Origin: Planctomycetota bacterium
GTDB taxonomy: Bacteria; Planctomycetota; Brocadiia; Brocadiales; Brocadiaceae
Assembly (NCBI GenBank): GCA_016188675.1
Contig: JACPHJ010000104.1
Span: 1-64,000, forward strand
DNA length: 64,000 nucleotides
Reading direction: 5' to 3'
In this document: positions 23,361-57,476 of the stretch, one piece after another
Numbering within the stretch: position 1 is the stretch's first letter
Layout: each line of letters opens with the position of its first letter
Translations under genes and position numbers: made by a program
Notes under the pieces: generated by a model
What the model saw: the letters and a program-made list of their open reading frames with translations, nothing else
Told to the model about the DNA's origin: nothing
Databases searched by the model: none

Positions 23361-25049
23361 CTACCCGGCAAATTCAACTACAGCATGATGGCCTTCAACG
23401 GGTTCTTTGCAGGCACTGACTTGTAAAAAATCAATAAACTCTTTTAATATCTCTTTATCAAAGCTCCCCTCCATTCCCTTTATCATATTTTGTAAAACGT
23501 TAAAAGCCGCTTTTGAATCGTTTATTGTATTCCTGGACATCTGCATTTCAAATTCGTCTAAGATACGGGCTATACGGCTATAATAATGAATTTCTTCACC
23601 CTTCAAGCTCTCCGGGTACCCCTTCCCGTTATACAGTTCATGGTGCTGCCGTGCAATCAGACATGCTTCCGCAGCCATATTGCCGCTGTTGGAGAGTAAA
23701 ATAAAACCCAGATCGGGGTGTTTTCTCATCTGTTCTCTTTCTTCTTTTGTTAGTGTTTCCAAATCCTTTTTTGTCATAGAATGGTCTATCTTCGTTTTCC
23801 CTATATCATGCAGCAACAGGCCGGTGCCTAATGCCAAAAGATCGCTCACGGGCATTTCGAGATAATACCCAAAGAGCAATCCCAGGATGGCGGTGTTTAC
23901 CGAATGCCTGAATACGTTTCTGTCGTATATCAACGTTTTCATCAGGTCCGAACAAATTTCTTTGTCCTTCAATACCAAATCGAGCGCGACGGTGGTCCAA
24001 TCTTTTGCCCTTTCAACGGCAACACCGACACTCAACTCCTTCATTGCATCCGTCATCATATTTATCGCGACTTCGTAGACAATATGCATTCGTTCCTGCA
24101 GCGTTGCCATTTCATCGCGAACAACATGCTCAAGATTTGTCTCCATGTACCGCAGATATTGCCCGGTGCCGTTCTTGGCAACGTAGATTTTATTAATATT
24201 TTTCTTTACAAAGGATTCTTTCCGTTCATCCTCAAACAGCTTGCTGCCCTTGCAATACAACAGATATTTAATTTCTTCATTCACTGCCGTTTGCAAATAG
24301 AGGTCACATCCTGCGAAGGCGCCGGTTTTTATGCTCCTTAAGGTTACGGGCAAATACTTATGTTTTTCATCATAGTAGGTAGACGTAAAGCGGTCCAGCT
24401 TGTTAGGATTTTTGAGTCTCTCATACAAGTCGGTATTCCTGATGGCGATAGCCACATACGCTGCAATCGTCTCCAGGAAACGCACATCGTTCTCCGTATA
24501 CGTATCGCCTGACTTCTTGCTATTTACGCTTATTACACCAACCACCCTGCCCCGCGCCTTAACGGGGACACATATCACAGTTTTCCCAAGATACCACCTG
24601 AATTGTTGTTTGTTAAACCGCTGGTCGTTTTCAATATCATCGATAACCAAATGTTTCCCGCCTTTTATAACCCATCCGATTGCCCCATCCCCTACTTTGA
24701 ACACCGTATCATTTGCCACGTGGCTGGGCAGCCCTTTTGCAGCCTTCAACTGCACTTCATCTCCATTGACTAATACAATCATCCCGGACAAACTGCCGGT
24801 CCCACAGACAGTAATATTATTGACCAGCGGAAATATCCTCTCCAGATCCAGCACAGAAGTCAAAGCATGTCCGATTTCCTTGAGATTTAGCTCCTTCAGA
24901 CTGTCATAAGACTCGTCCATTAATTTGTCAGTACTACGCGGATGATGTAAGAGATAATATAATTTAGCGAGACATCTGATATCATTCAGCGTATCCTGAA
25001 CTACCTTCAAATCTTCCCTGACTGTTTGATTCAACATATTTGTTGTCAT
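23361..25049 (-). CDS. GAF-HD-GYP c-di-GMP phosphodiesterase (probable)
   Basis: 562 residues. A GAF domain covers about 55-205. A middle module at about 220-380 (paralogous to the start of the 25262 protein) follows, and an HD-GYP domain ends the protein: HDIGKTKI near 416, KHPDLG, QHHELYNGKGYP, and a later Asp (ARILDEF). The metal-ligand pattern is complete although the IVDVYDA segment is unusual. Expected to hydrolyse c-di-GMP in the cytoplasm. GGGGATAATTGCT precedes the ATG, and a sigma-54 site lies 56 bp upstream, linking it to flagellar control. Confidence 0.88.
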   Translation of the reverse strand: MTTNMLNQTVREDLKVVQDTLNDIRCLAKLYYLLHHPRSTDKLMDESYDSLKELNLKEIGHALTSVLDLERIFPLVNNITVCGTGSLSGMIVLVNGDEVQLKAAKGLPSHVANDTVFKVGDGAIGWVIKGGKHLVIDDIENDQRFNKQQFRWYLGKTVICVPVKARGRVVGVISVNSKKSGDTYTENDVRFLETIAAYVAIAIRNTDLYERLKNPNKLDRFTSTYYDEKHKYLPVTLRSIKTGAFAGCDLYLQTAVNEEIKYLLYCKGSKLFEDERKESFVKKNINKIYVAKNGTGQYLRYMETNLEHVVRDEMATLQERMHIVYEVAINMMTDAMKELSVGVAVERAKDWTTVALDLVLKDKEICSDLMKTLIYDRNVFRHSVNTAILGLLFGYYLEMPVSDLLALGTGLLLHDIGKTKIDHSMTKKDLETLTKEEREQMRKHPDLGFILLSNSGNMAAEACLIARQHHELYNGKGYPESLKGEEIHYYSRIARILDEFEMQMSRNTINDSKAAFNVLQNMIKGMEGSFDKEILKEFIDFLQVSACKEPVEGHHAVVEFAG

Positions 25050-25104: not shown

Positions 25105-25120
25105 AGCAATATAAGTGCCA
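25105..25120 (-). promoter_or_regulatory. Sigma-54 promoter of the GAF-HD-GYP gene
   Basis: On the minus strand TGGCACTTATATTGCT, a full match to TGGCAC-N5-TTGCW with GG-N10-GC spacing, 56 bp before the ATG at 25049. Confidence 0.82.
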
Positions 25121-26577: not shown

Positions 26578-27342
26578 TTAGCAGGCACTTAGTGAAATCT
26601 TATTCATTCTTGCCCGAAGCAAGAATAACGCCCGATGGTGAAGCTGAGATACCCTTGACTCTGAAATGCCTATCAATTGACTAATTTCCTTCAGCATTAG
26701 ATCCTCATAGTAATACAGTGTAATCACCAGTCTTTCCCGTTTTGGTAATTCTGCAATGGCATTAGCCAATAAAGTTTTTTCTTCCTGTGTTTCCAAATGG
26801 CTTAACGGGTCATTAACCTTGGGATCCTTAATTTGCTGATTTCTGTCGTCTCTTGAATTGTCTTCGGATTTTTGATTATACTCTTCCAGAGAAAGGAACG
26901 TACTAAAACTAATTTCCGCCAGTAATTTATCCCACTCCGTAGGATTTATTTTTAGCACCGCTGCAATCTCATCAGCCCGGGGCGGCCTGTTTAGCTTTTG
27001 TTCCAATGAAATGTACGTATCTCTAACCATTGTTGCCTTATCCCGCACAGAACGAGGCAGCCAGTCTTGAGACCTTAAGTAATCTAAAATTGCGCCGCGA
27101 ATACGGGAAATAGCGTATGTGCCGAATTTTGTATCCTTCTTTGAATCATACTTTTCCGATGCCTCTATTAACCCCAGAATGCCGTACTCTATAAGATCCT
27201 CTTTGTCTACAAAAGGTGGTAAATATATTATAATTTTACCTACCACATATTTAACCAGTGAAAGGTATTCTATGATTAATTTATCACGCTTCATTAAATC
27301 TACCCGTGTATAGCTCGATTTTGCTTTAGTTACCGTACCCAT
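26578..27342 (-). CDS. fliA: RNA polymerase sigma-28 factor (FliA/WhiG type)
   Basis: Directs late flagellar transcription. 254 residues with region 2 (LVKYVVGKII, EDLIEYGILGLIEA, FGTYAISRIRGAILDYLR), region 3 (LPRSVRDKA...) and region 4 (LPKRERLVITLYYYEDLMLKEI, SESRVSQLHHRAL). The RIRGAILDYLR stretch separates it from housekeeping sigmas. AAGGGGAAACGAAA precedes the ATG. Two matching promoters are in the window (fliC1, flgM), and its inhibitor FlgM is at 57141. Confidence 0.96.
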   Translation of the reverse strand: MGTVTKAKSSYTRVDLMKRDKLIIEYLSLVKYVVGKIIIYLPPFVDKEDLIEYGILGLIEASEKYDSKKDTKFGTYAISRIRGAILDYLRSQDWLPRSVRDKATMVRDTYISLEQKLNRPPRADEIAAVLKINPTEWDKLLAEISFSTFLSLEEYNQKSEDNSRDDRNQQIKDPKVNDPLSHLETQEEKTLLANAIAELPKRERLVITLYYYEDLMLKEISQLIGISESRVSQLHHRALFLLRARMNKISLSAC

Positions 27343-44552: not shown

Positions 44553-44568
44553 AGCAAAATAAATGCCA
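44553..44568 (-). promoter_or_regulatory. Sigma-54 promoter of flgBC-fliE
   Basis: Minus strand TGGCATTTATTTTGCT, with TGGCA and TTGCT and GG-N10-GC spacing. The start of transcription would be about 15 nt before the flgB ATG. The FlrC-like activator gene ends about 100 bp upstream. Confidence 0.85.
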
Positions 44569-44674: not shown

Positions 44675-46069
44675 TCATTCCGCGCAGGAAACAGTTTCCC
44701 TTTCAAGAATAGGTTTTGATTCTGCATCGTATTTATGAAGTTTATTCCTTAACGTTCTTGTGGTAATTTTAAGCAATTCTGCAGCCTTGGTTTTATTTCC
44801 GCCCGTTTTTTCCAGTGTGCTGTAAATTAAGTCCCTTTCCACATCCTCAATAGCATTTCCTCCGTTCAATGTTTTTCCTGGTCGCTCAACATCACGATGA
44901 TTAAAAAGGCAGTTAAATTGCTCTAATTGCAGCACCTCATGCGATCCCATGACCACTGCCCTTTGCATGATATTTTTTAATTCTCTTATATTTCCCGGCC
45001 AGTTATACTGACACAAGTAATCCATAGCCTCTTTATTTATGGATTTCACAACGGCATTATTTTCAAGGCTGTATTTTCTGAGATAATAATCCACAAGCAG
45101 CGCAATGTCCTCCCGTCTTTCTCTCAGAGGCGGTAAATAAATTGGCACGACATTCAGGCGATAAAAAAGGTCTTCACGAAATGTGCCTTTTTGTATTTCA
45201 TTAATAAGATTCCTGTTTGTCGTTGCCACAATCCTTACGTCAATTTTTATCGTCTTTTCTCCTCCTACCCGCTCAATCTCCTCTTCTTCAAGAACCCTTA
45301 GCAATTTGGCTTGTATATTAGGGGATATTTCACTGATCTCATCAAGCAGCAGAGTACCCTCGTTCGCCAGTTCGAAACGCCCTGTATGTTTCGAAATGGC
45401 TCCGGTGTATGCCCCCCTTTCGTGCCCGAACAGTTCGCTTTCTAAAAGAGTTTCAGCCAAAGCTGCACAATTAACACGAATAAAAGGGTTGCCGCTCCTG
45501 GGACTATGAAAGTGTATAGCGCGAGCAATGAGTTCCTTCCCCGTGCCGCTTTCTCCCTGAATCAAAACACTTGCCTTACTCTGGGCAATCTTCCTGATCT
45601 GCTCATATATAAGGGACATCTTGGAATTGCGGCTAAACACAGGATTTAATTTTTCATCAATATTTGAATTAGTTCTCCAATACTTGTTCTCCGTAATTAA
45701 CTTTTGCCGTTCATTTACCCTTGATATCAGGAGCTCTATCTGTTCCGGAGAAAATGGTTTTATAATATAGTCATACGCCCCTTTTTTCATTGCCTCCACC
45801 GCAGTCTCTATCGTTCCATGAGCTGTCATAAGGATTACGACCGTTTCAGGAGAAATGCCTTTTACCTTGTCCAGCACCTCCATGCCGCACATCCCCGGCA
45901 TTTTCATATCAAGAAATATCACATCATAAGCTTCTTTACCTATCCTGGCCAGCGCCTGCTGTCCATTATTTACAGACGCAACTTCATATCCACCCCTCAT
46001 TAGTGTTTCATAAAGATATTCCCGCCCTAAGGAGTCGTCGTCTACCACCATTATCTTTTCAACACTCAT
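44675..46069 (-). CDS. Sigma-54 activator, FlrC/FleR-type response regulator
   Basis: 464 residues. Receiver 1-120 (VIFLDMKMPG, phospho-Asp), AAA+ domain about 140-380 (Walker A GESGTGKE near 175; GAYTGA loop near 218, a variant of GAFTGA; Walker B region LLLDEIS), and a Fis-type HTH (GGNKTKAAELLKITTRTLRN). Activates sigma-54 promoters after phosphorylation. It lies between flgB and a PAS histidine kinase, the usual FlrBC/FleSR position, so the flagellar sigma-54 sites are its likely targets. Confidence 0.92.
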   Translation of the reverse strand: MSVEKIMVVDDDSLGREYLYETLMRGGYEVASVNNGQQALARIGKEAYDVIFLDMKMPGMCGMEVLDKVKGISPETVVILMTAHGTIETAVEAMKKGAYDYIIKPFSPEQIELLISRVNERQKLITENKYWRTNSNIDEKLNPVFSRNSKMSLIYEQIRKIAQSKASVLIQGESGTGKELIARAIHFHSPRSGNPFIRVNCAALAETLLESELFGHERGAYTGAISKHTGRFELANEGTLLLDEISEISPNIQAKLLRVLEEEEIERVGGEKTIKIDVRIVATTNRNLINEIQKGTFREDLFYRLNVVPIYLPPLRERREDIALLVDYYLRKYSLENNAVVKSINKEAMDYLCQYNWPGNIRELKNIMQRAVVMGSHEVLQLEQFNCLFNHRDVERPGKTLNGGNAIEDVERDLIYSTLEKTGGNKTKAAELLKITTRTLRNKLHKYDAESKPILERETVSCAE

Positions 46070-46259: not shown

Positions 46260-47585
46260 TTATAAAAACTGCGGTATCAGCGCCTCGCTTTGGGAATACA
46301 CATCGCCAAAAGAATCCGTATCGTAAATATTATTTTTCGGCAAGTTAACATAAAAAGTGGTGCCACTGCCTTCCACACTCTCTACAAATATTTTGCCGTT
46401 ATGCGCCTCAATGATCTTGTTCACGATTGCCAATCCCAAACCGGAGCCTTCTTGTTTTGTCGTAAAGAATGGATCAAAGATTTTATTAACAAGCTCCTTT
46501 TTGATGCCAACCCCCGTGTCCTTTATTCCGACTTGTATATCTTCACTACTGTAATCGTCTCCAAGTGTGCGAGTAAACACGGTTAAATCTCCCCCGCACG
46601 TCATGGACTGAGACGCATTTAAGCACAGGTTTAAAAAAGCCTGTTGTAATTTCTCGGGATCGCATCTTACAATATCTTTATCCAAAATATATTCTTTTCG
46701 AATGCGAATATTGTTAATACCTTTCTGTTTTATATCCTCAGCCACAAAGAAAAGGGTTTTCTCTAATATCTCTGAAATACTATTATCCCTTAACTTCAAT
46801 TTGAGAGGCCGGGCAAATACCAGTAGTTCAGTCACAGTCTTATTTAAATTTTTTGTGCCTTGTATAATATTCTTTACCATCTTCTTTCTTGGATCTGAAT
46901 CTTCGAAGTCACGCGCAAGCAGTGCAGAAAACCCTTCGATCCCATTCAAAGGATTACGAATTTCATGGGCAATACACGCTGCCATAGCGCCAATGGCGGC
47001 TAATTTATCCGCATTTCTAAGACGCATCTCCAATTCTCTGATTTCAGACAAGTCTCTGAATACCTCTACCGCTCCTATTATATTTTCATTGGCATCTCTG
47101 ATTAAAGACACACTGCTTTCTATCCATTTTAACACCCCTCGGACCGTTTCTATCTTTCGCTCGACATCAATACAATTTTTTCTTTTTTCAAGCGCCAGCA
47201 ACAATAACGGCGTACTGCCGTCGCTATTCTTAAAAATGGTTTCGACCTTCTTTCCCATTACAAACAAAGCGTCCAATCCTAATATTTTTTCTGCTGCCTT
47301 ATTAATGGTGGATATTTCGCCTTTCAAATTCACGGCTATAACACCGCTGTGAATACTGCCCAAAAGGTTATTCGAATATTTTGTAAGGCTATCCAACTCC
47401 TGTACCTTGTCCTTCAAACAGGCATTTTTGTATGCCATTTCCTTATCAATTTCTTTAACCCTGTTTTGAAGGTGATTATAAGATTCTTCAAGCCGCAACG
47501 TATACTCGTTAAACAGATGGAAGGCAGAGGCAAGCTCTGTCCCCCAATTCTTTTTGAATTCCGTTATCGTAGCGTTTTCCATCAT
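46260..47585 (-). CDS. PAS histidine kinase, FlrB/FleS-type
   Basis: 441 residues without TM helices: N-terminal coiled coil (to about 75), PAS (about 75-190, SGVIAVNLKGEISTINKAA), HisKA with phospho-His in CIAHEIRNPLNGIEG (about 210), and HATPase (NLCLNASQSM N box, IKDTGVGI, GSGLGLAIVN). A cytoplasmic kinase next to the sigma-54 activator at 44675, its likely partner. 18 bp after the TPR lipoprotein gene. Confidence 0.92.
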   Translation of the reverse strand: MMENATITEFKKNWGTELASAFHLFNEYTLRLEESYNHLQNRVKEIDKEMAYKNACLKDKVQELDSLTKYSNNLLGSIHSGVIAVNLKGEISTINKAAEKILGLDALFVMGKKVETIFKNSDGSTPLLLLALEKRKNCIDVERKIETVRGVLKWIESSVSLIRDANENIIGAVEVFRDLSEIRELEMRLRNADKLAAIGAMAACIAHEIRNPLNGIEGFSALLARDFEDSDPRKKMVKNIIQGTKNLNKTVTELLVFARPLKLKLRDNSISEILEKTLFFVAEDIKQKGINNIRIRKEYILDKDIVRCDPEKLQQAFLNLCLNASQSMTCGGDLTVFTRTLGDDYSSEDIQVGIKDTGVGIKKELVNKIFDPFFTTKQEGSGLGLAIVNKIIEAHNGKIFVESVEGSGTTFYVNLPKNNIYDTDSFGDVYSQSEALIPQFL

Positions 47586-48613: not shown

Positions 48614-48629
48614 AGCAAACAAAATGCCA
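48614..48629 (-). promoter_or_regulatory. Sigma-54 promoter of the TPR lipoprotein-kinase-regulator operon
   Basis: Minus strand TGGCATTTTGTTTGCT, nearly the same as the flgB site and with GG-N10-GC spacing, 57 bp before the ATG at 48557. It implies autoregulation of the FlrBC-like pair. Confidence 0.83.
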
Positions 48630-49003: not shown

Positions 49004-50848
49004 TTACAAAGGTTGTGTATTACTGGTTGTCTCGTCCAAAGGGGTATCTGTATGCAACATCGGTTTAGGGGCAACTTCGTCTTTGTCCAAACCTACGAGA
49101 TATGCCTTTATTGCCTGCTCTAACTTCCCCATGGATTTATAACAATCGCCGATACGTTTAAATGCGTATTGCCTTATTTTCTCTTCATTACTGGTTTTTA
49201 ATAAATCAAGATAACTATTTATTGCCTCATCATACTTTTTGTCATTAAAGAGCGCATCAGCCATACCTATCATACCTTCGGCCGCCAGTTCACTGTCGGG
49301 GTATTGCTTTACAAAGTTATCAAAAGCATGGTATGCCAAATTATAATCACCTCTGTCAAAATAACAATTCCCAATATCCAATGCCATTTTACTGGCATAA
49401 TCACTATCCGGGTATGCCTGCATTCCATCGCGGAATGTCTGTATTGCCGAATCTGACATATTCATAGCACTTAAACTTTTCCCCAGAAAGTAAATTCCAT
49501 AAGGAACCTTATTGTTCTTAGGATAGGTGTCTGTTGTTTTCCTGAATATTTGAAACGCAGCCAGGTAATTATCTTGTTTGTAAAAACAATCGCCTAGCAT
49601 GAAACTGGCATTTTCTAAAAGTTCTCCATCACCACCCTGTTCGCTGACCAGAAGATTCCCAAAAACACTGCCAGCATCCTGGTACTCATTCAATAAATAC
49701 AAGCAATTACCAATTTGATATTCAATCTCCAATCTCATTTGACCCGAATTGTATTTCTCTCTTGCTTGTAAAAGAGATTGTAATGCGTTTCTATAATTAC
49801 CCATTGTTATATAGGTTTTTGCCATATTGAATTGGGCTCTACAAGCTGTATCTTCCTTAGGATATTCGCTAATAACCCTTTCATAGATATCTATTGCCTT
49901 ATGGTAAAGACCTTGCGCAACTAAAGAATCTCCTATTGACAAAAGTGCGTCATCAACTAATGGATCTTTTGGATAACTATACATAAATTGGAAATAGACC
50001 CGTCTGGCATTTTCATGGTCATTTAGGCTGTCATAGCACCGGCCTGTTTTGAACAATGCTTCTTTTATCAACTGAGGTTCTTTATATTTTCCCAATACGA
50101 TTTTATATTCCTGCAATGCGAGAAAATTAAAACCGAGATCATAATAATAATTTCCCAACTCCAAATATGCCTTTGCAACCCTGCGATCATTCGGATATTT
50201 TAATTGTGCCTTTTGATAAAGCTGAACACCTTTGTCCCGATAATATTCAAATGCCGTATCCTCGTTGAGCTTCGACAAGGTAATAACATATATGGAATCC
50301 TCATTCTGAATGAATTCTAACCCGCGTATCCCAAGAACCACCTCTAATATATCCTGTAAAGGACTTTTTTGAATTGAAATATTAACGTAAGAAGATAAGT
50401 AGGCAGAATCAACGTCTTCATCCACAATAATACTCTTACCAAAACTAGCGGATAATGCTTGTAATATATCCGTTATCTTTACCTGGGTTGCATCAATCGA
50501 ATACACGGGCACACCATATTCACCTATTTCTTTCGTCAACACAATATTTTCATTTGGATTGATTACAATCGGAGCCTTGTTTAATTGCTTACTATTGTCT
50601 TTTTCAACATTTTGAGGCTCAATTTTCTGAATCTGTTCTTCCTCATCATCTTGTGTCTCTAATATCTGTAATTGCGTCTGGAGCTTCTCCAAATTGCGTT
50701 TCTCTATATTCAGTTTTTCGTTCATACTACCTGAACTATCCGGCGTTTCCTCCCCATGTAATGGGGTGACTTCCACGATGGAGATAGTGACTATCCCTAT
50801 AAATCCACATAAAACCATACAGAATTTAACAAGTAACTTTCTATTCAT
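49004..50848 (-). CDS. Periplasmic TPR protein with secretin-like (STN/N0) domain
   Basis: 614 residues. Signal peptide about 1-29, a coiled coil about 45-75, a secretin-N/STN-like domain about 105-190 (VPVYSIDATQVKITDILQAL, VNISIQKSPLQDILEVVL), then about ten TPRs to 590. The STN fold normally occurs at the start of secretins and TonB-dependent receptors; here it is joined to TPRs without a secretin barrel. Probably a periplasmic scaffold. Follows the membrane TPR gene by 33 bp. Confidence 0.82.
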   Translation of the reverse strand: MNRKLLVKFCMVLCGFIGIVTISIVEVTPLHGEETPDSSGSMNEKLNIEKRNLEKLQTQLQILETQDDEEEQIQKIEPQNVEKDNSKQLNKAPIVINPNENIVLTKEIGEYGVPVYSIDATQVKITDILQALSASFGKSIIVDEDVDSAYLSSYVNISIQKSPLQDILEVVLGIRGLEFIQNEDSIYVITLSKLNEDTAFEYYRDKGVQLYQKAQLKYPNDRRVAKAYLELGNYYYDLGFNFLALQEYKIVLGKYKEPQLIKEALFKTGRCYDSLNDHENARRVYFQFMYSYPKDPLVDDALLSIGDSLVAQGLYHKAIDIYERVISEYPKEDTACRAQFNMAKTYITMGNYRNALQSLLQAREKYNSGQMRLEIEYQIGNCLYLLNEYQDAGSVFGNLLVSEQGGDGELLENASFMLGDCFYKQDNYLAAFQIFRKTTDTYPKNNKVPYGIYFLGKSLSAMNMSDSAIQTFRDGMQAYPDSDYASKMALDIGNCYFDRGDYNLAYHAFDNFVKQYPDSELAAEGMIGMADALFNDKKYDEAINSYLDLLKTSNEEKIRQYAFKRIGDCYKSMGKLEQAIKAYLVGLDKDEVAPKPMLHTDTPLDETTSNTQPL

Positions 50849-50881: not shown

Positions 50882-51766
50882 TTATTTTGAAGCTAATGAT
50901 CGGATAGAGGTGCTAGTTCCTACAACAGCGGCTTTACGAAGCCGCTGTGCTTCCTTCATATAATAATCTGCTATCTTAAAATAAGCGTCTACAACGATCG
51001 ACTTGTCGTCATTGGAACTGCATTTTCCTTCTTGTGCAACAACCGTATAAAGCGTTTTTCTTGCTTTCTCAAATTCGCCCATTCCAGCGTAACATTCCCC
51101 TACTTTCAGCCGGCTTTTAAAATGATATGGACTGTTAATAAAATCATTATTTAATGTCTGAAACACTTTCGCTGCTTCTTCATATCTTTCGGACATTAAA
51201 TAACAATCTCCCAGGCGGTACATTACAAAATCCTCATTTAAAAAGGGCATTGATTTATCCAACCCCTTTTCATAAGAAGCTGCTGCGCCTCTATAGTCTC
51301 CCTGTTCGTATAATCTATTTGCTTCGATTACGTATTTTGAATTGTCCACTTTTATACTGCGAGATTCGTTCTTTGAACCTGTCATTTCTTTTTCTTGTTT
51401 TACAAGGTTATTTTCCTTTGTCTTCTTTTGCCCCGCAGTTTTATTTGTATCTTTATCTAAATCCAAGTTTTTTTTAAGGTTCTCAATTACCTTTTCTTCG
51501 TCAATACGTCCCACAATCTTATTCCCACCCTTGCCTCGATCCATTTGGAGAAAAAATAAAAGACAGACCACCACCAGGATTACGAGGTTCATGGCTATCG
51601 AAACCCCCTGTTGCCGAACGAATAAAAAAATCCTGGAAATATTCCCTATTGGCATTGAGAATTTCTTCTTCTTTTCTTCCTTATGAACATCAAGCAATGG
51701 CTCTGCAGGTTGTTTAGGCGTTTCTGTTGCGGCCTGTGTTTGATCCTGTGTTATCAAATCAGACAT
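50882..51766 (-). CDS. Membrane-anchored TPR protein
   Basis: 294 residues: polar N terminus, one TM helix at about 56-75 (SIAMNLVILVVVCLLFFLQM), Lys/Glu-rich linker, and TPRs at about 125-280 (ANRLYEQGDYRGAAASYEKG, MYRLGDCYLMSERYEEAAK). Topology N-in, TPRs in the periplasm. It lies between the STAS gene and the STN-TPR gene and could connect cytoplasmic signalling to the envelope TPR set. Confidence 0.78.
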   Translation of the reverse strand: MSDLITQDQTQAATETPKQPAEPLLDVHKEEKKKKFSMPIGNISRIFLFVRQQGVSIAMNLVILVVVCLLFFLQMDRGKGGNKIVGRIDEEKVIENLKKNLDLDKDTNKTAGQKKTKENNLVKQEKEMTGSKNESRSIKVDNSKYVIEANRLYEQGDYRGAAASYEKGLDKSMPFLNEDFVMYRLGDCYLMSERYEEAAKVFQTLNNDFINSPYHFKSRLKVGECYAGMGEFEKARKTLYTVVAQEGKCSSNDDKSIVVDAYFKIADYYMKEAQRLRKAAVVGTSTSIRSLASK

Positions 51767-51794: not shown

Positions 51795-52181
51795 TTAAGT
51801 TAAATTTTCTTTCGACCATAAAAGCATTCTCTCCAGCTTCCCAACCTGAGGTCCCAGGCTGGCTAAAGCGACGTCCTCATTCTCAAATACCTCGATAAGT
51901 TTGAATAAACCTGTAATGGCAAGCAACTTTTTTATATTTTCATTAACGTTAATTAACTTTAACTCTTTTTGTTTGTCTCTAAGGTGTTTTACATAAAATG
52001 CCATTATCCCTAATGCCTTAGCGGAGAGGTATCTTGTATGCGCAAGATCCAGTATGACATGACGGGTATTGTCGCATGATATCTTAAATTGAGTTTCGAG
52101 TTCATCTATTCCCTCGTAAACCAAATCCCCTCTAATTAACAATATCGTAGCCTTCTCTTTTTCTCGTTTTTCAATTTTCAT
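51795..52181 (-). CDS. STAS-domain anti-sigma factor antagonist-like protein
   Basis: 128 residues from the ATG at 52181, overlapping the previous gene by 11 bp. STAS fold (ATILLIRGDLVYEGIDELE; VILDLAHTRYLSAKALG). The usual DSSG phosphorylation loop reads LSAKALG: a Ser is kept, the Asp is lost. Likely partner of the RsbW-like ATPase domain of the preceding gene. Confidence 0.87.
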   Translation of the reverse strand: MKIEKREKEKATILLIRGDLVYEGIDELETQFKISCDNTRHVILDLAHTRYLSAKALGIMAFYVKHLRDKQKELKLINVNENIKKLLAITGLFKLIEVFENEDVALASLGPQVGKLERMLLWSKENLT

Positions 52182-53721
52182 TACAGCCAACCCGCTTTGC
52201 CATATGTACCGTAGTCCCCATCTCTTTGGAGGATTGTATCATCACCCTATCCATTAATTGCTTCATTATGAACATCCCCCTGCCGCTTTTTTTTGTTAAG
52301 TCTTTATACAACGTAATATCCGGTTCTGTATAAGCTTGCACATCAAACCCGCAACCACGGTCAGAAACCTCTATAATAACCTCGTCCCCTAACATCGAAA
52401 ATTTCAAAAATACGGCCCCCTTTTCATCTTCATGATATGCGAAAGATACTGCATTCAAGACCGCTTCGTTGACACAAGTAACAACTTCCTGTCTCTTATG
52501 ATTATCTCCCACAAGAGGCAATAACTTTTTATCAAATTGTTCCAATATTTCCCCGTAATTACTAATGGGTATTGGAACAGACATGATCTCATCCCACGAC
52601 GCAGATGTTTGCGCCTGAAACTCACTGCCCGAAACCATTACTGCACAATCTTTTTCCTCAGCAATTGATTCGTCGAGCCCCTCTATTTGAAGTTTTATAC
52701 CCTTTGCCATATCTTCGCAATTTGTCGCACTTCCGTCAGATATTGCATCTTTGAATCTATCTGCCGTAATTGTTCCATTTTTCAAACCTTTTAACAATGA
52801 ACTGTTATGTATCAAAACTAATTTGCTACCTAAAACAAAAGATGCATTGCTTTCCGTGATTGCCATTCCAGGGAACATATTTAGTGGAAATGGAGAAGAT
52901 TCCAACATCTTTACTTCCTTGCCGGACAGGCTTATAAAACACGTTAGTTCTTCCCCATGAATTGAATAACAAAGTGTTTGCCTTTGCCCATCTAAAACAG
53001 CACAAAATAACGTTACGGGAAATCGTTTTAGAATATTTTTACAAAGATATTGATTAATCTCTTTTAGTAAAGAAGCAGGGGACTTATCCGTTTTCAACAA
53101 ATAACGAAAGATTGTTTTGACTATAACGTCCAAATTTTTTACATCCACTTCACGGGAAATACTCCCAAAAACAAATGCATTTAACTTCCCAATACCGATG
53201 ACATCATAAAAAGTATTGCATGCAGTTACTGTCGTATCCTTTGTGACAAAAAATGCATCCGTTTGGCTGCAAAGATCGTTATATTCCTTCTTCAATCCTT
53301 CATTTTCAGTTTCAGTGCTCTTTGTACAGCTAATATTGTTATTAAGGTTTAAGATCGCCGAATCATTTAGAACTCTATAAATAACACTCTTAATATGCTC
53401 GATTTTAAATGGTTTTGTTATAAAGTCCATCACGCCGAGATGCATAGCTTCAATAACAGCTTCTATAGAACCATAAGCAGTGATGATAATAGCCTTGGTA
53501 TCCGGGTTCTGTTTTTTTATCTCGGAAATCAATTGCAGTCCGCCCATTATCGGCATCTTCAAATCACTAATCACCAGGTCGTATTTAGTCTTTCTCGTAA
53601 ACGCCAAAGCCTTGACACTATCGTTTGTGTTCTCTATATCGAAACCTTCTTCCGATAAGGCTTCGTGCAAAGCCCAGCGCAACGTTTCTTCATCATCTAC
53701 CAATAAAATCTTTTTTTTCAT
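52171..53721 (-). CDS. Response regulator with degenerate PP2C (SpoIIE-like) and RsbW-like ATPase domains
   Basis: 516 residues. Receiver about 1-120 (VISDLKMPIMGG). About 160-345 matches the SpoIIE/PP2C pattern over its length, but metal Asp positions are lost: GGDxYD reads CNTFYD (about 170), GDVSGHG reads FGSISREVD (about 187), TDG reads HNSS (about 305). The C-terminal RsbW-type HATPase at 385-510 looks active (NEAVLNAVSFA, DRGCGFD, GRGMFIMKQL). It probably binds and phosphorylates or releases the STAS partner in response to phosphorylation. 16 bp after the activator gene. Confidence 0.83.
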   Translation of the reverse strand: MKKKILLVDDEETLRWALHEALSEEGFDIENTNDSVKALAFTRKTKYDLVISDLKMPIMGGLQLISEIKKQNPDTKAIIITAYGSIEAVIEAMHLGVMDFITKPFKIEHIKSVIYRVLNDSAILNLNNNISCTKSTETENEGLKKEYNDLCSQTDAFFVTKDTTVTACNTFYDVIGIGKLNAFVFGSISREVDVKNLDVIVKTIFRYLLKTDKSPASLLKEINQYLCKNILKRFPVTLFCAVLDGQRQTLCYSIHGEELTCFISLSGKEVKMLESSPFPLNMFPGMAITESNASFVLGSKLVLIHNSSLLKGLKNGTITADRFKDAISDGSATNCEDMAKGIKLQIEGLDESIAEEKDCAVMVSGSEFQAQTSASWDEIMSVPIPISNYGEILEQFDKKLLPLVGDNHKRQEVVTCVNEAVLNAVSFAYHEDEKGAVFLKFSMLGDEVIIEVSDRGCGFDVQAYTEPDITLYKDLTKKSGRGMFIMKQLMDRVMIQSSKEMGTTVHMAKRVGCNEN

Positions 53722-53737: not shown

Positions 53738-55132
53738 TTACGATTGACTTATGCCGTATTCTTTTATCTTATTATATAAAGTCGTCCGATTAATACCCAG
53801 TATCCTGGCTGCCTCTGTCCTCCGCCATGAAGTCTCATTAAGCACCTTTTGGATGTGTTGTTTTTCAATGCTTGCCAATGAACTGACGTTCAACTCTCCA
53901 TCGCTCTCCACGCTATCGCCAACTTCGTTTACAACAATTTTTTTCCCTGAACTGATGGGGGCAACCAACTCCGGCAATAACGTACCATTAGTTGCGATCA
54001 ATACGGCTCTTTCTATTATGTTTTTCAACTCACGAATATTTCCAGGCCAATTATATTCCAAAAGTTGCTTCTCTGTCTCCGGAGGTATATGATGTATATT
54101 TTTATTAAATTCATTATTATATTTGTGCACAAAATGTTTCACCAAGAGCAAAATATCTTCACTTCTCTCTCTTAAGGGCGGAACATAAATCGGCAGCACC
54201 TTCAATCTGTAATAAAGATCTTTTCTAAAATTACCCGCATCCACTTCTTCTTCCAGATTTCTGTTAGTTGATGCGATAACCCTGACATCAATCTTAATAT
54301 CATTAATCCCGCCGACTCTCTTGAATTGCCTTTCTTGCAGAACCCTCAGAAGCTTTGCCTGCAATGAAATCCCCATTTCGCCTATTTCATCCAAAAAAAC
54401 GGTTCCTTTATCAGCAATCTCGAACAAACCAGGCTTGCCTGTTGAGGTAGCGCCGGTAAACGAACCCTTTTCATACCCAAACAATTCCGCCTCAAGAAGG
54501 CTCTCTGTCAGGGCGGCACAATTGATATCTACAAAACGCCCGTTCTTTCGCGAACTCAAACGATGAATAGCCCCGGCTACAAGTTCCTTTCCTGTGCCAC
54601 TTTCGCCTTGTATTAATACCGTAGTCGAAGGACTCTTTGCAACCTGTTTAATAAGGTTATAAATTTCTTTCATCGGTTGGCTATTTCCAATTATAATCCC
54701 GTTTGGCTCATCGGTAAAAGTCAACTGCTGTGCCCTTAATTCCAGCACTTCACGCCTTAATGCCTGCGTGCCCAGGGCCTTTTCGATAACCAGCCTTAAA
54801 TGCTCCACCTTAAACGGTTTTTCCAAATAGTCATATGCGCCCATCTTCATCGCCTCTACAGCAGTATCAATACTTCCATATCCAGTCATAACTATCATTA
54901 AAACATTGGGGTCTTTTACTTTTACTTTCTCAAGAAGCGCTATCCCACCCATAACAGGCAACCGCAAATCTAACAGTATCAAATCAGGCAAGAGTTCATT
55001 TATCTTCTCCAATGCCTGCTCACAAGTTTCTGCTACATGAACCTCATACCCCTGCCCCTCTAAAAATTCTTTTATTGAAAACCGAATCGTTTCTTCATCA
55101 TCTACAATAAGAATTACTCCCTTTGATATCAT
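53738..55132 (-). CDS. NtrC-type sigma-54 response regulator
   Basis: 464 residues: receiver (LILLDLRLPVMGG), AAA+ domain (GESGTGKE near 179, GSFTGA loop near 222, VFLDEIGEM) and Fis-type HTH (SWRRTEAARILGINRTTLYN). Second enhancer-binding protein in the window, only moderately similar to the 44675 one. It heads the partner-switching/TPR operon and may control it or some of the sigma-54 sites. Confidence 0.92.
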   Translation of the reverse strand: MISKGVILIVDDEETIRFSIKEFLEGQGYEVHVAETCEQALEKINELLPDLILLDLRLPVMGGIALLEKVKVKDPNVLMIVMTGYGSIDTAVEAMKMGAYDYLEKPFKVEHLRLVIEKALGTQALRREVLELRAQQLTFTDEPNGIIIGNSQPMKEIYNLIKQVAKSPSTTVLIQGESGTGKELVAGAIHRLSSRKNGRFVDINCAALTESLLEAELFGYEKGSFTGATSTGKPGLFEIADKGTVFLDEIGEMGISLQAKLLRVLQERQFKRVGGINDIKIDVRVIASTNRNLEEEVDAGNFRKDLYYRLKVLPIYVPPLRERSEDILLLVKHFVHKYNNEFNKNIHHIPPETEKQLLEYNWPGNIRELKNIIERAVLIATNGTLLPELVAPISSGKKIVVNEVGDSVESDGELNVSSLASIEKQHIQKVLNETSWRRTEAARILGINRTTLYNKIKEYGISQS

Positions 55133-57140: not shown

Positions 57141-57476
57141 TTATGATTCCTGCCTTTTAATAGTAAAAGCATCTATAACTTTGTTTGCCACATCCTCAAT
57201 CACTTCCTGCCTGTCGTAAAAACCGTCTTTCAATTTTGCCCTTACTTCTTCCACCTTAGCATCTCTTACGTCCGGAATTTCACGAACGGCGATTTTCAGG
57301 TTCTCAACCGTCTGTTCAAGATTTCTGGCCTCCTTCGAAATATCTACCGTATCGAGTTTTGTATGAACAGGGCGTTTACCTTTTTCTGCTTTTATTTGGG
57401 ACTGGTTGGCCTCAACACGACCCGTATTTGCAACTCTGGCATTTAGAGAATTTTTAGAGATATTTTCTATTGACAT
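57141..57476 (-). CDS. flgM: Anti-sigma-28 factor
   Basis: 111 residues: disordered polar first half, then the FlgM pattern (DTVDISKEARNLE, IPDVRDAKVEEVRAKLKDGF, VIEDVANKVIDAF). Binds FliA until the hook is complete, then is exported. Slightly longer than enteric FlgM (97). A sigma-28 promoter lies upstream, so it is feedback-controlled by FliA. Confidence 0.9.
   Translation of the reverse strand: MSIENISKNSLNARVANTGRVEANQSQIKAEKGKRPVHTKLDTVDISKEARNLEQTVENLKIAVREIPDVRDAKVEEVRAKLKDGFYDRQEVIEDVANKVIDAFTIKRQES

Follow-up and report, generated by a model that had tools for sequence, protein, structure and literature searches.

A Receiver–Pseudo-PP2C–ATPase Fusion and Its STAS Partner: A Possible Binding-Only Switch in the Flagellar Gene Cluster of Anammox Bacteria

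Results

Gene Content and Flagellar Setting of the Locus

The window analyzed in this study, a stretch of 64,000 nucleotides from the genome of an anammox member of Candidatus Brocadiaceae, contains at positions 51795–53721 two overlapping genes that form the module described here (Table 1). One encodes a fusion of a receiver, a PP2C/SpoIIE-like domain, and an RsbW/SpoIIAB-like ATPase domain; the other, ORF 51795–52190 (−), encodes a STAS protein that scores above the cut-offs of both Pfam STAS and TIGR00377. The ORFs and the Pfam profiles agree with the original prediction, made by a reader of the DNA, with respect to both these coordinates and all four domain calls. The probable start of the STAS gene is the ATG at 52181, which overlaps the fusion's stop codon (ATGAAAATTGA), and this overlap recurs in relatives. 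The ATPase domain of the window protein has the motifs NEAVLNA, DRGCGFD, and GRG, all intact as had been predicted, and the profile and the motif test together confirm the presence of the GHKL ATP-binding motifs, the N-box Glu included.

The module lies in a flagellar gene cluster, where Pfam identifies FlhA, FliM, FliG, FliF, FliE, and an FlgB-type rod protein; this setting, beside FlgM, had been missed by the original prediction. On one side of the module is the flgB end of the cluster, on the other flgM, and the neighboring genes encode two NtrC-type regulators related to each other according to cross-matches, a PAS histidine kinase, and TPR proteins. One of the latter, encoded at 49004–50848 (−), contains a weak secretin N0-like segment (E 6e-4), and its gene follows the module in almost every anammox locus of the comparison.

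TABLE 1. Features of the module, its genomic surroundings, and related loci.
Feature	Position	Strand	Evidence
Fusion: receiver + pseudo-PP2C + RsbW/SpoIIAB-like ATPase	52171..53721	(−)	516 aa ORF
Receiver domain, residues 5–114	53380..53709	(−)	Pfam Response_reg E 8e-29; D9/D10, D53, T81, K103 intact
PP2C/SpoIIE-fold domain, residues 152–372, without metal-binding Asp	52606..53268	(−)	Pfam SpoIIE/PP2C E 1e-10, model, residue table
RsbW/SpoIIAB-like ATPase domain, residues ~375–513	52183..52599	(−)	Pfam HATPase_c_2 E 1e-19; N, G1, G2 boxes intact
STAS protein, 128 aa from ATG at 52181; acceptor Ser replaced by Ala54	51795..52181	(−)	Pfam STAS E 4e-14, alignment
TPR protein with a probable membrane segment, immediately 3′ of the STAS gene	50882..51766	(−)	Pfam, synteny
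NtrC-type sigma54 response regulator, immediately 5′ of the fusion gene	53738..55132	(−)	Pfam, synteny
Second NtrC-type response regulator, adjoins flgB	44675..46069	(−)	Conserved position
PAS-HisKA-HATPase histidine kinase	46260..47585	(−)	Pfam, conserved position
FlgM anti-sigma28 factor	57141..57476	(−)	Pfam FlgM E 2.5e-8, synteny
Sigma70-family factor by FlhG/FlhA-type genes, FliA (sigma28) by position	26578..27342	(−)	
Exact sigma54-type −24/−12 site, upstream of the gene run containing the kinase	48614..48629	(−)	
Exact sigma54-type −24/−12 site at the flgB-type gene	44553..44568	(−)	
Exact sigma54-type −24/−12 site, ahead of the gene starting at 25049	25105–25120	(−)	
HisKA-only protein of family f4	L095:11296-11787, L096:10423-10917; also L047, L052	(−)	

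The gene order is kept in Brocadia, genome G025, Kuenenia, locus L094, and four loci of family f4, and the flagellar synteny of the module extends over Brocadiaceae, genome G061 of family f5, and the f4 genomes. FlgM was not found on the L094 contig, nor in the 19-kb stretch around the module in Kuenenia G021 (L131, G021:C1:610000-629900; L092). In the latter genome, every match to flhA, flhB, fliR, fliP, and fliM has a broken frame; the genes for NtrC, the fusion, the STAS protein, and the kinase are intact despite this damage to flagellar export genes. A decay of flagellar genes has been described in Kuenenia strain MBR1 (PMC5854607).

Three exact sigma54-type sites are present in the window, with 0.2 expected and none of 100 shuffles reaching three; with one mismatch allowed, the pattern is no more frequent in the window than by chance. 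All three exact sites are located at or just upstream of the starts of flagellar-cluster genes.

Loss of the PP2C Metal Ligands and of the STAS Acceptor Serine

The metal ligands of SpoIIE are D610 (a would-be second-metal ligand), D628, D746, and D795 (PMC3517971). In the window protein all four are replaced, by Thr, Ser, Asn, and Lys, respectively, which agrees with the substitution of the metal-binding aspartates claimed originally. Twenty-five relatives from three families, namely, 18 fusions and seven f4 proteins, were compared in an alignment that included two intact PP2C domains of this class. Asp is absent from the positions of D610 and D628 in all 25 relatives; at the position of D746 it is lost in 23 out of 25, with Asp aligned there in two fusions, and at the position of D795 it is lost in all 18 fusions and kept in six out of seven f4 proteins. 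An intact metal site was found in none of the 25 aligned orthologues, the loss of Asp being conserved among homologues.

The full-length model of the fusion has a pLDDT of 66.6, with a poor ATPase region, and therefore the PP2C domain was modeled on its own. The PP2C-only model, built from 25 sequences, reached a pLDDT of 85 and a pTM of 0.85, and its Foldseek matches in the PDB are the RsbU–RsbW protein Rv1364c, P. aeruginosa RssB, RsbX, and SpoIIE (E ~1e-9); for the full model, the RssB structures of Pseudomonas and E. coli rank first, and Rv1364c is also close. Pfam, the PP2C-only model, and the match to SpoIIE are all in line with the predicted PP2C-like nature of the middle domain, and a PP2C fold is thus supported by modeling. 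Given this fold and the lost metal ligands, the phosphatase chemistry of the domain is, judging from its residues, very probably gone.

For the STAS gene, the overlap with the fusion gene and the absence of an Asp had both been noted correctly, but the latter is ordinary: we rejected it as the key feature, as this Asp is missing from canonical STAS domains of the class, too, and it is uninformative because canonical “YISSAGL” STAS domains, one of them in the same genome, also have Ser there. The decisive loss affects the next residue, the acceptor serine. According to the alignment, the equivalent of SpoIIAA Ser58 is Ala in 19 out of 19 STAS orthologues (a frameshifted copy in genome G010 also has Ala), and of 14 other STAS domains inspected in this class, 13 have the acceptor Ser and one has Gly. 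Ser53, adjoining the lost acceptor, is invariant among the STAS orthologues. The frameshift in the G010 gene (L017/L117) is either real or a sequencing error.

Distribution and Conservation of the Module

The fusion was found, as full-length ORFs, in 17 out of 33 Brocadiaceae genomes, and one more full-length relative comes from family f5 (G061, L044). Relatives in named genomes belong to Candidatus Brocadia, Kuenenia, and unnamed Brocadiaceae, that is, to anammox Planctomycetota, and relatives elsewhere in the phylum match mainly in the ATPase domain. In the same class, locus L053 (genome G070) encodes an intact PP2C–RsbW fusion that has no receiver; the neighboring STAS gene retains its Ser.

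All 17 fusion-bearing Brocadiaceae genomes have an flhA match (one copy broken), compared to two out of 16 genomes without the fusion, so that two Brocadiaceae genomes have flhA and no fusion (Fisher p 1.5e-7, with phylogeny not corrected for and some genomes incomplete). As for the other families, f3 likely corresponds to the flagella-less Bathyanammoxibiaceae (PMC9723696), and f4 is likely Scalinduaceae. The f4 orthologues consist of the receiver and the pseudo-PP2C only, with flgM kept and the same synteny; neither the ATPase domain nor the adjacent STAS gene was found at the f4 loci, and hence the pseudo-PP2C seems to have a partly STAS-independent role. Between the NtrC gene and the gene for the receiver and pseudo-PP2C, the f4 loci encode a small protein (~165 aa) in which a HisKA phosphoacceptor domain is not accompanied by an ATPase domain; it could be a Spo0B-like phosphotransfer protein.

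In 16 fusions, residues D9/D10, D53, T81, and K103 of the receiver are invariant, as are residues E419, N423, D454, G456, G458, G480, and G482 of the ATPase domain. Pairwise dN/dS values are ~0.02–0.05 for the receiver (zero in one pair), 0.06–0.28 for the ATPase domain, 0.12–0.19 for the STAS protein, and ~0.18–0.36 for the PP2C domain, which shows purifying selection on each of them, and the pseudo-PP2C is thus maintained. The source genome also has, on contig C139 (L058, L099), an intact canonical HAMP-PP2C/RsbW-like/STAS set, and thus the loss is specific to the flagellar-cluster module. This set is followed by genes resembling those for ABC-transporter substrate-binding proteins, and there is a further STAS-containing ORF (L057).

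Discussion

Proposed Mechanism

The anatomy of the module is well supported; its mechanism is what we infer. Its best reading is a putative receiver-gated, binding-only flagellar switch. As both the PP2C catalytic residues and the STAS Ser are lost, the module probably works by binding alone, and there is a nearly even chance that it is an HsbR/HsbA-like flagellar partner-switching module of anammox bacteria, from which the serine phosphorylation–dephosphorylation cycle has been removed at both ends. It is also a serious, if tentative, possibility that flagellar genes are controlled here by a partner switch with zero serine phosphorylation, in which the phosphatase would be an allosteric scaffold, the STAS protein would be held in the state mimicked by a Ser-to-Ala substitution in Pseudomonas, and phosphorylation of the receiver Asp would be the only covalent signal.

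The proposed switch would start with phosphorylation of the receiver, possibly through the cluster's PAS histidine kinase, a candidate partner of the receivers. The pseudo-PP2C would then relay the conformational change of the receiver to the ATPase domain, as in RssB and RsbU, where upstream signals travel via the linker and the PP2C switch helices, the pseudo-phosphatase included (PMC12143880), and the ATPase domain would bind or release the permanently non-phosphorylated STAS protein. Free STAS protein would antagonize FlgM, releasing sigma28. The FlgM step is the weakest link: FlgM is a candidate STAS target, to which the nearby conserved flgM points circumstantially, and alternatively STAS binding would make the ATPase domain release a sigma factor. 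The original interpretation, according to which the receiver and the pseudophosphatase gate STAS binding without dephosphorylation, is thus partly supported, as the acceptor is lost in every orthologue; that the binding is gated by the receiver is what we infer.

The N-box Glu is the catalytic base in SpoIIAB, and since it is invariant here, some kinase or ATPase activity may remain, directed at STAS Ser53 or at a different substrate. One could then suppose that the ATPase domain still acts as a serine kinase on Ser53 or some other protein and that a separate PP2C, e.g., the C139 paralogue, removes the phosphate. The invariance of all ATP motifs and of Ser53 by the lost acceptor, as well as the intact PP2C elsewhere in the same genome, fit this scheme, but Ser is usual at that position in canonical YISSAGL STAS domains keeping the normal acceptor, so that the conservation of Ser53 may be structural, and the C139 PP2C gene adjoins a kinase gene and a STAS gene of its own; we therefore regard the scheme as unlikely. 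Activity of the PP2C domain itself via a non-canonical metal site is highly improbable: in spite of the Asp kept at D795 in most f4 proteins and aligned at D746 in two fusions, the D610 and D628 aspartates are missing throughout, and the usual site on the STAS protein offers no phosphate to remove.

The f4 orthologues, with the receiver and pseudo-PP2C alone in the same synteny, may also be taken to mean that these two domains form an RssB-like adaptor for a flagellar regulator or sigma factor, which it would present to a protease or some other partner, with the ATPase domain and the STAS protein as a modulating accessory. This agrees with RssB being the best match of the full model, and with the inactive PP2C of E. 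coli RssB and the dependence of P. aeruginosa RssB on its STAS partner RssC (PMC12143880). However, the sequence gives no hint of a protease link, and Brocadiaceae and G061 keep the ATPase domain fused and the STAS gene adjacent and conserved, which leaves such an adaptor rather improbable. Finally, the lost catalytic residues and the frameshifted STAS gene of G010 might be seen as signs of a decaying relic, but dN/dS is well below 1 in every domain, PP2C included, ORFs are full-length in 17 genomes, and the gene order is conserved, making decay extremely unlikely.

Anammox bacteria are hard to manipulate genetically. If true, the binding-only switch would provide a concrete, testable model of flagellar control for them, and a lineage that has lost both phosphatase chemistry and the phosphoacceptor, with the proteins under selection, would be a natural test of how far contact-only signaling can go. 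It would also be the second PP2C-turned-scaffold behind a receiver, after E. coli RssB.

Comparison With Known Systems

The fusion architecture itself is not new, because the HsbR–HsbA layout is already known: both HsbR–HsbA of P. aeruginosa (PA3346–PA3347) and CrsR–CrsA of Shewanella oneidensis combine a receiver, PP2C, and an RsbW-like domain, arranged in one chain in the order also seen in the anammox fusion, with a separate STAS protein. Hence, the initial statement that phosphatase and kinase functions are normally separate was overstated, as HsbR, CrsR, and Rv1364c are all fused. In the P. aeruginosa system, partner choice is set by phosphorylation of HsbA Ser56 (PMC6482189); HsbA in its non-phosphorylated form binds FlgM, thereby freeing FliA, and the HsbA S56A substitution increases swimming (PMC6482189, PMC5085249). 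The hsb genes, which have been relocated beside flgM (PMC5085249), control flagella (PMC6482189, PMC5085249), and the anammox module similarly lies near flgM. However, HsbR and CrsR are described as active phosphatases/kinases, whereas the anammox PP2C lacks the metal ligands, and HsbA is phosphorylated on Ser56, whereas the anammox STAS protein lacks the acceptor Ser. The unusual part is the pairing of a dead phosphatase with a non-phosphorylatable STAS protein; in the part of the literature on STAS pseudophosphatases and anammox flagellar anti-sigma control that was covered, we found no account of this module.

RssB, in E. coli and, together with RssC, in P. aeruginosa, resembles the fusion in that a PP2C-fold domain follows a receiver; in E. 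coli this domain is inactive, and the adaptor function of the P. aeruginosa protein requires the STAS partner RssC (PMC12143880). RssB, which delivers sigmaS to ClpXP, has no ATPase domain, whereas the chain of the Brocadiaceae fusion continues into one, and the PP2C domain of E. coli RssB is C-terminally truncated and its metal ligands are not mutated, unlike in the anammox domain. Rv1364c, the RsbU–RsbW fusion of M. tuberculosis, also has PP2C and RsbW-like domains in a single chain, but its matched structure, unlike the anammox fusion, has no receiver. The Rv1364c pathway controls a sigma factor and not flagella.

The SpoIIE/RsbU–SpoIIAB/RsbW–SpoIIAA/RsbV switches are built of the same three domain families as the anammox module. 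Partner switching is defined by STAS phosphorylation, and the canonical switches cycle phosphate on a STAS Ser that is absent from the anammox protein. Signaling by STAS proteins can continue without the phosphoacceptor, as observed for RsbS S59A in the B. subtilis stressosome (PMC3944199); that is an engineered mutant in another complex, whereas the loss of Ser in anammox bacteria is natural and fixed in the lineage.
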